Source of the DNA: Candidatus Binatia bacterium
GTDB taxonomy: Bacteria; Desulfobacterota; Binatia; Bin18
Reading direction: 5' to 3'
Length of the DNA: 32,191 nt
Assembly (NCBI GenBank): GCA_022824615.1
Contig: JAJDZM010000026.1
Span: 1-32,191 of the forward strand
Within the stretch, counting starts at the first letter, position 1; each line of letters opens with the position of its first letter. Position numbers and translations under genes: made by a program. Positions 8,229-12,178 of the stretch are shown here, in pieces. A model generated the notes under the pieces. That model did no database searches, was not told the origin of the DNA, and saw only the letters and a program-made list of their open reading frames with translations.

Positions 8229-9116
8229 ATGTCGGTTCCCCCTTCGTCCGCATGCTCGGCTTTTCCGCTCTCTCGATTGCCAGCCGTCAATGTTGCCACT
8301 GTTCCCCAACGGAGTCCGCTCCGGTATCCAGGAGGGAAGACGTGGCTGATTCCGCATATTCGAGAATGGCTTGCTAACGTTCAGGCCCGCGTACTGGTTG
8401 AACCCTTTGCCGGGGGTGGCATTGTCTCCCTGACTGCCGTGATGGAGGCATTGGTTGACCAAGCGATTTTAATTGAGCGTGACCATGACGTTGCCGCCTT
8501 TTGGCATATGGTACTGGAAAATGGAGCGCCCCTTGCGGAGCGGATTCGTCATTTTACCCCCACACGGGAGTTGGTAAGCGCTCTGGAACAGTCAGGCGTG
8601 CGGTGTGTGGCTGAGCATGCGTTTCGGACCTTGGTGCTGAACCGGACAAAACGAGCCGGGATTCTTGCGCCAGGAGCATCATCCATGAGGGCCGGCGAAA
8701 ACGATAAGGGTATTGTTTCCCGGTGGTATCCCGATACGCTCGTGGCACGGTTGCAAGCTATTGGGGAATACGTCGATAAACTGACCTTTTTTGAAGGGGA
8801 TAGCATGCGTCTCCTCGAACCACTATTACGGGGATGGGGGAAAGACGCCGTCGCCTTCCTTGATCCGCCCTATACGGCAGCTGGGGGGAAAAAAGCAGGC
8901 GCACGCCTTTATGCCTATAGCACCATTGACCATGCGGCCTTGTTTGAGATGATGGCCCGCTGTAAATCAGATTTTCTCATGACGTATGATGGCGCACCGG
9001 AGATTGTGGCACTTGTCGAGAAATACCAGTTTCAAGCGGTCCGTGTGGAGATGAAAAACGCGCATCACCATCGCCTGCCTGAACTGGTGATTACGCGGGA
9101 AAGACGGTTCTCATGA
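8229..9116 (+). CDS. D12-class adenine-specific DNA methyltransferase of a type II R-M system
   Basis: This enzyme transfers a methyl group from S-adenosylmethionine to N6 of adenine and would protect the host from the adjoining endonuclease. The 295-residue protein has motif X LRYPGGKTWLI (31-41), SAM-binding motif I VEPFAGGG (57-64) and catalytic motif IV DPPY (212-215), in the order of the Dam/EcoRV-type D12 family. The first roughly 28 residues have no matching motif. GAGGG lies five bases before the ATG at 8229, but an internal start before SPLRYPGGK is possible. The stop overlaps the endonuclease start in ATGA, so the two are translationally coupled. No controller (C) protein gene is visible. 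Confidence 0.9.
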   Translation: MSVPPSSACSAFPLSRLPAVNVATVPQRSPLRYPGGKTWLIPHIREWLANVQARVLVEPFAGGGIVSLTAVMEALVDQAILIERDHDVAAFWHMVLENGAPLAERIRHFTPTRELVSALEQSGVRCVAEHAFRTLVLNRTKRAGILAPGASSMRAGENDKGIVSRWYPDTLVARLQAIGEYVDKLTFFEGDSMRLLEPLLRGWGKDAVAFLDPPYTAAGGKKAGARLYAYSTIDHAALFEMMARCKSDFLMTYDGAPEIVALVEKYQFQAVRVEMKNAHHHRLPELVITRERRFS

Positions 9117-9979
9117 GCACGCGCTATGGGATTGCGGAATGGTATGGAGAACCGTTCGCCACGATGCCCCCAAAGCGGCGGCGAGCCTTGGCGGCGGTTG
9201 CTTTGGGGCAAAACAGAGACATTCCCAGATGCCCATTTCAGCGCGGGCAGGTTCCCTGTAACAAAAAAGGTGGAGTCTGCTCTATGCAGACCTACCGCCC
9301 CTATCTAGGCAACCATTTATCAGACCGGATAGGAGAGCGAGCCGGGCCACCTGTTATTATGTGTCCAAAACGGTTTGACCAAAACGATATTGTCCCGAAA
9401 TGGTTGGCAAGGATTGTGGGGTTTCAACAGGTCTTTCTCGCGCAAGAAGTCCCCTTTATGCGGTCGCCAGATACAGGACAAGCTGCCGGTCGGATTGATA
9501 TCGTCCTGTCAGGAAACAGCACTGCTTCCAGGTGGTTTGGGTTAGAGATTCAAGCCGTGTACTTCTCCGGTAAAGGCATGGCGCGTGACTTTGAAGTCTT
9601 CCACCATGATACCGGACGGCTTCCCCCCATGCCGACTACGGTGAGGCGCCCTGATTGGCGCTCTTCCAGCGCAAAGCGGCTTATGCCGCAGTTAGAGATC
9701 AAAGCCCCGACTTTACGTCGATGGGGAACAAAGTTAGCTGTGGCGGTCGATGTGCCGTTTTTTGAAGCGATTGGGGGAGTAAGTAGCCGTCCCTCCCATG
9801 ATATCAACGAGGGCGATATTGTATGGCTCGTGGTGCAGGTGTCTGACCGCTATGAGTTGGAACAAGTGCACTGGGAAGTGCTATCACTTGAGGAATCAAG
9901 CAGCAAACTCTTAGCTGCGGAGACCGTCAAGCGGGAAGAATTTGAAGAGATTCTCCGCTCGAAGCTCCGGCCGTTGTAA
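9113..9979 (+). CDS. NotI-family type II restriction endonuclease
   Basis: This is a predicted site-specific DNA endonuclease of 288 residues. The N-terminus RYGIAEWYG is followed by a cysteine cluster: Cys40 in RCPFQ, Cys49 in PCNKKGG, Cys56 in VCSM and Cys84 in MCPKRF. It resembles the metal-binding four-cysteine module known from NotI. The active site fits a PD-(D/E)XK variant with Asp129 (GRIDIVL) and Glu145-x-Gln147 (GLEIQAVY). No frameshift is seen, so the gene appears intact. It begins in the ATGA overlap with the methyltransferase stop. The family assignment rests on motif recognition; the target site cannot be read from the sequence. Confidence 0.8.
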   Translation: MSTRYGIAEWYGEPFATMPPKRRRALAAVALGQNRDIPRCPFQRGQVPCNKKGGVCSMQTYRPYLGNHLSDRIGERAGPPVIMCPKRFDQNDIVPKWLARIVGFQQVFLAQEVPFMRSPDTGQAAGRIDIVLSGNSTASRWFGLEIQAVYFSGKGMARDFEVFHHDTGRLPPMPTTVRRPDWRSSSAKRLMPQLEIKAPTLRRWGTKLAVAVDVPFFEAIGGVSSRPSHDINEGDIVWLVVQVSDRYELEQVHWEVLSLEESSSKLLAAETVKREEFEEILRSKLRPL

Positions 9980-10102: not shown

Positions 10103-12178
10103 TCACCAAGCTCGACTGCGACGCTGGCGCCAGTCATCCTCGTCTTCATCCTCTTCTTCAATGAGAAAAACCGGTTTCAGAATCCGGCGGGGAATGTCTT
10201 CCAAAAAACGCGACGGTTTACTGAGGACCATACCGGTCGCACGATCGAAGATATTGATAGGATAGGAAATAAACAGGTTTTCTTTGGCCCGGGTGGCGGC
10301 CACATACATCAGCCGTCGCTCTTCTTCGAGCTCGTCGTCCTCCTTGTTGTACAGTGAAGGGAAACGGCCCTCGACCGCCCAGATGATAAACACCGAGTGC
10401 CATTCCAGCCCTTTTGCCGAGTGAATGGTCGACAGGGTCAGCACGCCTTCTTCATCCTTATCGGTTGCCAGCACATCGCCCACGCTGCTGTTGGGCGGCT
10501 CCAGGGCCATATCCGACAGCAGCCGGTTCAGACTGCGGTAACGTTCGGTGATAATCGAAAAATGCTCCAGGTCTTTCTGGCGCTTGGGATAATCGTCGCG
10601 ATGATGCTGTTTGAGAATCGGCAGATAATACTGCACGATCAGGTCAATCTGCTCGCGCGGCTGGAGGTTGGGATCGGCGACGGTTTGGAGCGCGGCGGCC
10701 AGCTTCTGCACCTCGGTCTTGACCGCGCCGCGGCCAGGGTAGTCGGCCAGACGCTGCACCTGATCGGCCCCACCTAGCACATGGCTGAGAATCTTGTCGC
10801 TGCTCTTGGGCCCGACACCTTCGAGCAGGAGCAGCACCCGGTGCCACGACACCGCGTCCTGTGGGTTGGCCAGCACACGTAGATGGGCCAGCACATCCTT
10901 AACGTGGGTGGTTTCGATAAACTTGAATCCGCCCCGTTTGACGAACGGCAGGTTACACTTGCTCAGTTCGATCTCAAGATCGAAGGAATGAAAGCTGGAA
11001 CGAAAGAGGACCGCCATCTCGGTCAGGGGTACGCCTTCCTCGCGCAACTCCAGAAGCTTCTGGGCCACAAAGCGTGACTGGTAGCGTTCGCTATCGGCCT
11101 CGATCAACGCCGGTTGAAAGCCGCTGTCTTTTTTGGTGAACAGGTTCTTGGTGTAGCGTTCCTTGGCTTGCAGAATAATTTCGTTCGACAGGTCGAGGAT
11201 CGGCTGGGTGCTGCGGTAGTTTTCTTCGAGCTTGATCACCTTGGTGTCGGGAAACAGGTCCGGGAACTCGAAGATGTTGCGAACGGTGGCACCGCGAAAA
11301 CTGTAAATCGACTGGGCGTCGTCACCGACCGCCATGACGTTGTCGTGCACATGGGCCAGCAAACGCACGATTTCGGCTTGGAGCCGGTTCGTATCCTGAT
11401 ACTCATCGACCATGATGTAGCGATAGGTATGGGAGAGGCGTTCAGCGACCTCCGGGCGGGTGCGCAGCAGTTCGCGCAAATGGGTCAGCAGATCGTCGTA
11501 GTCGAGCAGGCTGCGTTCGCGTTTGTACTGCCGGTAATATTCTTCAATCCGGCTGAGGTCGTCGAGTTCGGAAAACAGATGGGGGAACTGCGAGTCGAGC
11601 ACTTCCGCTACGCTGGTGGTCTTATTGGCCGCTAGACTGATGATCTCGGCAATGGTCTGTTTGCGCGGGAAGCGGCGCGCCTTTTTGTCCAGGCCGAGAC
11701 GCGCCCGGATCAAATTGATCGCATCCTCGGAGTCGCCCCGGTCCAGAATCGTGAAGGCATTGGCAAATCCGAGCAGGGAGGCGTAGCGCCGCAGAACGGT
11801 ATTGGCAAACGAATGAAACGTCCCACCGGTTACCTTATCGCAGCGACCACCCATGAGGGCCTCAGCGCGCTGGATCATTTCTTCCGCGGCCCGGCGGGTG
11901 AAGGTCAGAAGGAGCAGCGACGCCGGGTCAATGCCTTCTTCAATCATCCGCGCGACCCGAAATATCAGAGTCCGCGTCTTGCCGCTGCCGGCTCCGGCCA
12001 GCACCAGCACCGGACCGTCGCGCGTGGTTGCGGCCTCGTACTGGCTGGGGTTCAACTCGTGCTTGTAGTCGATGGTAAAGTGCCGTGGTCGATGGCTCTC
12101 CGCATCCGACCGCAGCATATATTTCTCAGGACGGCTCTCGTCGCGTTCCACATTGCGTACTGTATAGTGGCTGGTCAT
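10103..12178 (-). CDS. UvrD/PcrA-type ATP-dependent DNA helicase
   Basis: This superfamily 1A 3'-5' helicase acts in DNA repair or replication-fork maintenance. The order of motifs is standard: Q-motif region LNPSQYEAA, Walker A AGAGSGKT (61-68), Walker B IMVDEYQDT, motif III VGDDAQSIYSFRGA, motif IV LEENYRST, motif V TLSTIHSAKGLEW and motif VI RRLMYVAATRAKENLF. At 691 residues it is slightly shorter than many PcrA proteins. The C-terminus is acidic (EEEDEDEDDW). The annotated ATG lies inside a repeat (12161-12240). The ATG at 12118 (Met21), or another start nearer FTIDYKHELNPSQ, may be the real one, since the first roughly 35 residues match no helicase motif. Confidence 0.92.
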   Translation of the reverse strand: MTSHYTVRNVERDESRPEKYMLRSDAESHRPRHFTIDYKHELNPSQYEAATTRDGPVLVLAGAGSGKTRTLIFRVARMIEEGIDPASLLLLTFTRRAAEEMIQRAEALMGGRCDKVTGGTFHSFANTVLRRYASLLGFANAFTILDRGDSEDAINLIRARLGLDKKARRFPRKQTIAEIISLAANKTTSVAEVLDSQFPHLFSELDDLSRIEEYYRQYKRERSLLDYDDLLTHLRELLRTRPEVAERLSHTYRYIMVDEYQDTNRLQAEIVRLLAHVHDNVMAVGDDAQSIYSFRGATVRNIFEFPDLFPDTKVIKLEENYRSTQPILDLSNEIILQAKERYTKNLFTKKDSGFQPALIEADSERYQSRFVAQKLLELREEGVPLTEMAVLFRSSFHSFDLEIELSKCNLPFVKRGGFKFIETTHVKDVLAHLRVLANPQDAVSWHRVLLLLEGVGPKSSDKILSHVLGGADQVQRLADYPGRGAVKTEVQKLAAALQTVADPNLQPREQIDLIVQYYLPILKQHHRDDYPKRQKDLEHFSIITERYRSLNRLLSDMALEPPNSSVGDVLATDKDEEGVLTLSTIHSAKGLEWHSVFIIWAVEGRFPSLYNKEDDELEEERRLMYVAATRAKENLFISYPINIFDRATGMVLSKPSRFLEDIPRRILKPVFLIEEEDEDEDDWRQRRSRAW

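Follow-up and report, generated by a model that had tools for sequence, protein, structure and literature searches.

Two overlapping genes on a contig of Candidatus Binatia bacterium (JAJDZM010000026.1) encode a predicted NotI-fold endonuclease and a D12-class methylase that we take to form a type II restriction-modification system, with a probability of roughly 0.93. We base this reading on the identities of the two genes, the fold, the conserved residues, the operon-like overlap, the conserved pairing of the genes and their correlated divergence. In the mechanism that we propose, the upstream D12 enzyme would use AdoMet to methylate adenine in a specific site, and the NotI-fold endonuclease encoded downstream, with a Cys4 metal site holding it together, would cut that site where it is left unmethylated, such that incoming phage or plasmid DNA would be broken and host DNA spared. 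What we infer from this combination of features is that both proteins are active enzymes, that the methylated base is adenine, that the two share a single site and that their role is defence against phages and plasmids.

The gene pair and its genomic context

Within the 32,191 bp stretch of DNA analysed here (the window), a D12-class (Dam-like) DNA N6-adenine methyltransferase gene of 295 aa occupies positions 8229..9116 on the forward strand (PF02086, E=3e-12). It is followed on the same strand by the NotI-family endonuclease gene of 288 aa at positions 9113..9979 (PF12183, E=2.2e-44; AlphaFold2 model), the stop codon of the first gene and the start codon of the second sharing an ATGA overlap at 9113..9116 (forward strand). 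An earlier note, made from the letters of the window, had placed such a pair with an ATGA overlap at 8229-9979, and ORFs of 295 and 288 aa were confirmed there on the forward strand. The same 4-base overlap was found in 44 of the 74 loci that, like the window (itself counted), have the D12 gene first; it was scored as a gap of -1 in our locus survey, in which ORFs stop short of the stop codon.

The surroundings of the pair are mostly housekeeping: on one flank lie genes for TopA, DprA and ArgS and one for an alpha/beta hydrolase, and the other flank carries those for a UvrD-type helicase, for TusA and for an MFS transporter. The G+C content is 0.51-0.54 at the pair compared with 0.58-0.61 in the flanks, a slight local decrease that fits acquired DNA, weakly if taken alone. 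For the UvrD-type helicase adjoining the pair (window 10103-12178, reverse strand) the top PADLOC matches were GajB (Gabija) models, which may just reflect a common helicase family.

The predicted NotI-family endonuclease

The endonuclease scored 152 bits against PF12183 (cut-off 22), and its AlphaFold2 model, built on a 52-sequence alignment, had a mean pLDDT of 95.6 and a pTM of 0.90. When this model was compared with the PDB using Foldseek, two NotI chains came out on top (3bvq_B, E=8.5e-7, probability 1.00), and the best match other than NotI reached only E=0.01. The match of the predicted fold to NotI is loose in detail, with a TM-score of 0.60 on the query and an rmsd of 6.4 over 373 columns of the 3bvq_B alignment at 14% identity. 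NotI was missed by PDB sequence searches that used the single endonuclease sequence or the profiles A1 and A2; we discarded the reading of these failed searches as a sign that the protein is unrelated to NotI, on the strength of the fold search and of a wider profile (A3, made from 20 family members, distant ones included) that matched NotI by sequence at 2.6e-16. None of the PADLOC nuclease models recognised the protein (best match 0.018, PDC-S26), and no NCBIfam model matched it.

According to a review (PMC4081073), NotI binds Fe2+ through a Cys4 motif and has a glutamine in place of the catalytic lysine. We determined the residue correspondence by adding NotI residues 14-267 to the family alignment, and scored conservation in 116 members, each 240 aa or longer and with its partner identified; the window and some near-copies are counted in this set. 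The window endonuclease contains exactly four cysteines, C40, C49, C56 and C84 (9230..9364, forward strand), which align with C42, C55, C65 and C81 of NotI and are kept in 114, 115, 115 and 114 of the 116 members, respectively. They would form a Cys4 metal site, in which, by analogy with NotI, the metal is presumed to be iron. The active-site residues E112, D129, E145 and Q147 (9446..9553, forward strand) lie opposite E145, D160, E182 and Q184 of NotI; D129, E145 and Q147 are invariant (116/116), and E112, which was absent from the residue list of the earlier note, is kept in 112. By alignment, the protein has the NotI-type active site in which Gln replaces the lysine of the PD-(D/E)xK motif. 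Profile, predicted fold, cysteines and active-site residues all identify the window protein as a NotI-family endonuclease, as had been proposed from the four cysteines, D129, E145 and Q147, which are present at the positions then given and align with NotI. The comparison of a predicted structure with NotI that had been suggested came out in favour of this assignment in both fold and alignment. Of the outcomes named as speaking against it (a missing match to NotI, misplaced cysteines, or homologues of the pair known as a non-nuclease operon) none was encountered: NotI was matched, and the cysteines fall on those of its metal site.

An alternative is an old system whose endonuclease half is inactive and which persists for a regulatory role of the methylase. 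Relatives that look broken do occur (L078 is in split frames, and for L098, which is short, no methylase was found), the window's own genome (5 Mb, 308 contigs) yielded just one PF12183 gene, and no site avoidance could be attributed to the endonuclease. However, the window gene is full-length, retains all of the active- and metal-site residues compared, and is 75% identical to full-length L032, which has the same arrangement. We consider an inactive endonuclease very unlikely, and prefer a working restriction-modification pair.

The D12 methyltransferase

The upstream protein scored 47 bits against PF02086 (cut-off 22) and matched the adenine-specific methyltransferase 7m6b in the PDB (E=1.4e-14); an NCBIfam search for methylase specificity returned general models only. 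In addition to the profile match, the protein has the PGGK, F-x-G-G and DPPY motifs of the D12 class, in the forms in which they had been noticed before: YPGGK at aa 33-37 (8325..8339), the AdoMet motif FAGGG at aa 60-64 (8406..8420) and the catalytic motif DPPY at aa 212-215 (8862..8873), all on the forward strand. Each position of YPGGK and of DPPY is kept in 95 or 96 of the 96 D12 partners compared (window included), and within FAGGG the F and the first two G are kept in all 96, the A in 78 and the last G in 64. D12 enzymes methylate adenine.

The best PADLOC match of the methyltransferase was PD-Lambda-5_B (1e-43), with type II MTase models next. PMC9519451 describes PD-Lambda-5 as a prophage-borne, compacted form of an RM+Abi system. 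The match would agree with a reading in which the two proteins have no common site, either with an independent Dam-like methylase lying upstream by chance or with the pair working in a PD-Lambda-5-like manner, but we find this hardly credible: the second gene encodes a predicted NotI-fold endonuclease that no PD-Lambda-5 model matched, and the ATGA overlap, the conserved neighbourhood and the correlated divergence described below argue for a restriction-modification pair acting on one shared site.

Distribution of the family and its methylase partners

A family-profile scan of genome contigs returned 573 relatives, and the family can hardly be called small, as it had been in the earlier note. 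The best 80 of these 573 were taken on; they came from MAGs of many phyla, and the adjacent methylase gene was D12 in 78, C5 in one and absent in one. Sampled genomes of the window's own phylum contained the family in 21 of 395 cases (own genome counted), and those of the phylum of a Sphingomonas locus in 13 of 398 (that genome counted), the partners in the latter being D12 in six, C5 in five (one of them the centre genome) and N4/N6-type in two. A search with profile A1 found the family on 13 viral contigs (six D12, seven C5); with the single endonuclease sequence there was no match to viral contigs and none to phage records at E 0.01. The family was also present in ten plasmid records, of which seven were fetched for inspection. 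We count the occurrence of relatives of the pair on plasmids and viral contigs towards the restriction-modification reading.

Our locus set comprised 135 loci, with the window in, two duplicate places out and some near-copies left in. A DNA methylase gene lay within 600 nt of the endonuclease gene in 129 of them: D12 in 107, C5 in 16 and N4/N6-type in six, although for two of the latter (L015 and L016) the label comes from a Pfam match of L015 below the threshold and from the homology of L016 with it. Among the six loci in which no methylase was found at this distance, three are fragments of less than 110 aa, L012 has a D12 piece farther away, and L005 and L098 have none. The set is skewed to the window's kin because its 80 genome loci are the closest ones. 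A D12 gene is nevertheless not a one-off partner, being found beside the endonuclease in 107/135 loci and in 6/13 genomes of the other phylum. The R and M genes are linked and conserved as a pair, as in type II restriction-modification systems. RefSeq records name a 'NotI family restriction endonuclease' together with a 'DNA adenine methylase' on Aeromonas, Achromobacter, Variovorax and Thermus plasmids, and the pair is therefore not new to annotation; it is a restriction-modification pair of an ordinary, widespread kind.

Several further arrangements were noted during this survey. The Opitutaceae chromosome OX638348 carries two equally matching copies of the pair (L045 and L046) approximately 1.2 Mb apart. 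On two conjugative plasmids, pAER-a82d (L220, 3971-6105) and pTHAF40_b (L221, 2983-5113), a C5 methylase gene overlaps or abuts a NotI-family endonuclease gene. C5 genes 50-53% identical to that of plasmid pBN5 were found on Xanthomonas, Pseudomonas, Klebsiella and Cronobacter plasmids.

Phylogeny and co-divergence

For a thinned tree, 19 short or partnerless loci were removed from the 135, and the remaining 116 were reduced to 87 by identity; smaller trees were made from hand-picked subsets of 37, 33 and 32 rows. In the 32-row tree, which includes NotI, one branch contained all 13 D12-paired endonucleases and six C5-paired ones, and the other contained NotI, six C5-paired and six N4/N6-type rows (100/99 support). 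NotI has a long row that is at most 28% identical to any other, and its exact position in this tree is unsure; long branches were seen for NotI, L131, L136, L134 and L031. By sequence, the window endonuclease falls in a branch apart from the deep branch of NotI. The earlier note had read the difference between the window system and NotI as a change of specificity within the family. Because NotI lies in a separate deep branch, whose sampled members have C5 or N4/N6-type partners, this difference is one between old branches and not a recent change; within the NotI family, the window endonuclease belongs to a branch that is large and old and in which D12 methylases are the usual partners.

The window's own group has a D12 methylase upstream in all 40 of its rows in the thinned tree (SH-aLRT 100). 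The group mixes phyla, its 61 rows carrying nine phylum labels with two rows unlabelled, and 19 phylum changes were counted (minimum 8, shuffle average 35), a mixing that can be raised by binning errors. Most of its members are presumably sponge symbionts, judged by sample names. Distances between endonucleases were correlated with those between their D12 methylases (Spearman 0.72 over 96 pairs, with 0/500 permutations as high), which is the pattern of genes travelling together, although common ancestry of the rows inflates the figure. The partner of the endonuclease is, as had been noted, a D12 methylase.

Possible exchange of the methylase partner

Within this branch of the NotI family we lean slightly towards a history in which the endonuclease was kept and its protection swapped, between adenine-N6 methylation and cytosine-C5 methylation accompanied by Vsr mismatch repair, at a single site that would have to include A as well as C. 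The endonuclease of pBN5 (L025) shares 84.8% identity with those of Aeromonas plasmids (L026 and L027) and 80.5% with those of IncP-type plasmids (L028 and L029). In the 37-row tree L025, L026, L028 and L125 formed one clade (100/99.9), the last three having D12 partners. On pBN5 (L222 30966-33777, equal to L025 3515-6326) a C5 methylase gene, the NotI-family endonuclease gene and a Vsr gene lie side by side: the C5 gene faces that of the endonuclease, their annotated ends separated by 1 nt, and the Vsr gene (PF03852) is on the endonuclease's other side. No D12 gene was found on the entire 39.5-kb pBN5, where two short matches had E=0.05 and 0.99; pKAM497_4 has a D12 gene, and no C5 match was found on it at E 1.

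Judged by their 85% identity, the pBN5 and Aeromonas-plasmid endonucleases likely have the same specificity; if so, one site would have to contain both A and C, as the sites of the plasmid subgroup probably do. The argument applies directly to the plasmid subgroup and would extend by analogy only to the window endonuclease, which is approximately 40% identical. Protection chemistry in the branch looks exchangeable, and since closely related endonucleases switch between C5 and D12 partners, the partner type is a weak guide to the whole site. The swap probably occurred more than once, because a single clade for the nine C5-paired rows of the branch was rejected in the 33-row tree (p-AU 1.75e-4) and none of 200 bootstrap trees had a single change. 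The best 33-row tree contained four partner changes, of which strongly supported branches alone force one. An earlier one-clade test on 11 C5 rows had given a p-AU of 3e-5; two of these rows were very divergent, and the test was repeated without them. If the swap is true, the branch would be a natural series on changing the protecting enzyme without killing the host, and C5/D12 partner swaps would be an opening on the reassembly of restriction-modification modules.

The recognition site

The NotI site is all G/C. With a D12 partner, the window system most likely has A in its site, and if it resembles the plasmid subgroup, C may perhaps be present too. Palindromes were counted at lengths of 4, 6 and 8 bases in a 276-kb sample of the window's own genome and in 400 kb of each of three other host genomes (G397, G404 and G406), and at lengths of 6 and 8 bases in 72 pooled host loci (691 kb); a later count of 6 bases only added a fourth host genome (G407, 400 kb) and two same-class control genomes without the family.

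Among 6-base palindromes, CTCGAG showed the strongest depletion in the own genome (22 seen against 95.5 expected, O/E 0.23), ranked first in the pooled host loci (139 against 259.8 expected), was depleted in three of the four other host genomes (O/E 0.57, 0.26 and 0.42) and did not occur anywhere in the window. It was undepleted in the two control genomes (O/E 1.09 and 0.91), which are only two and differ in G+C (0.67 and 0.72 vs 0.57). These figures would suit a restriction-modification system whose site is CTCGAG or an extension of it. However, G397 carries the system in two copies and shows no depletion of CTCGAG (190 seen, 194 expected), and 6-base palindromes were depleted broadly (median O/E 0.73 in the own genome and 0.36 in G406). 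When five hosts were combined, AAGCTT, AGGCCT and CAGCTG were the most depleted words, with CTCGAG outside the top ten. We regard this site as improbable, treat CTCGAG as a lead only and have abandoned naming a site from avoidance, the 8-base counts also being too small; what we retain is the restriction-modification reading with an A-containing site.

Available work on sponge methylomes yielded no usable motif, and NotI was absent from the accessible portion of PMC6329791. The own genome, with its CTCGAG loss and broad 6-base palindrome depletion, looks as if several restriction-modification systems had acted on it. In G406, a Dehalococcoidia MAG (L198-L217), most 6-base palindromes were extremely depleted, with GGTACC and GCATGC absent, and GATC and CATG were seen 346 and 238 times compared with 1536 and 1262 expected.

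Comparison with known systems

NotI is a widely used rare-cutter. We found little in print on its relatives: the terms 'NotI family restriction endonuclease' and 'PF12183' were not found in the literature searched, which excludes most subscription journals, and in the accessible part of PMC12707154 NotI occurs only in the reference list; REBASE may hold characterised relatives. Going by their sequences, NotI relatives would be candidates for new specificities on a distinctive metal-bound fold.

The window endonuclease has in common with NotI (PDB 3bvq, 3c25; PF12183) the predicted fold, the four cysteines and the E/D/E-x-Q active site. It differs in length (288 aa, compared with 383 aa in NotI) and is 14% identical to it in the fold alignment; NotI belongs to a separate deep branch (100/99), itself on a long branch, and has an all-G/C site, whereas the site of the window system is expected to contain A. 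With the anti-phage system PD-Lambda-5 the likeness is confined to the methylase: among PADLOC models, the window D12 protein matches the methylase model of that system best; of the two PD-Lambda-5 components, neither has a model that matches the window endonuclease. The plasmid pairs of Aeromonas, the IncP-type plasmids (pEST4011) and Thermus have the same two families adjacent as in the window, with endonucleases 29-40% identical to the window's, but in these the endonuclease comes first, whereas in the window the methylase does. The pBN5 endonuclease is 39-42% identical to that of the window, and differs in its neighbour, which is a C5-cytosine methylase (with Vsr) in pBN5 and a D12 methylase in the window.
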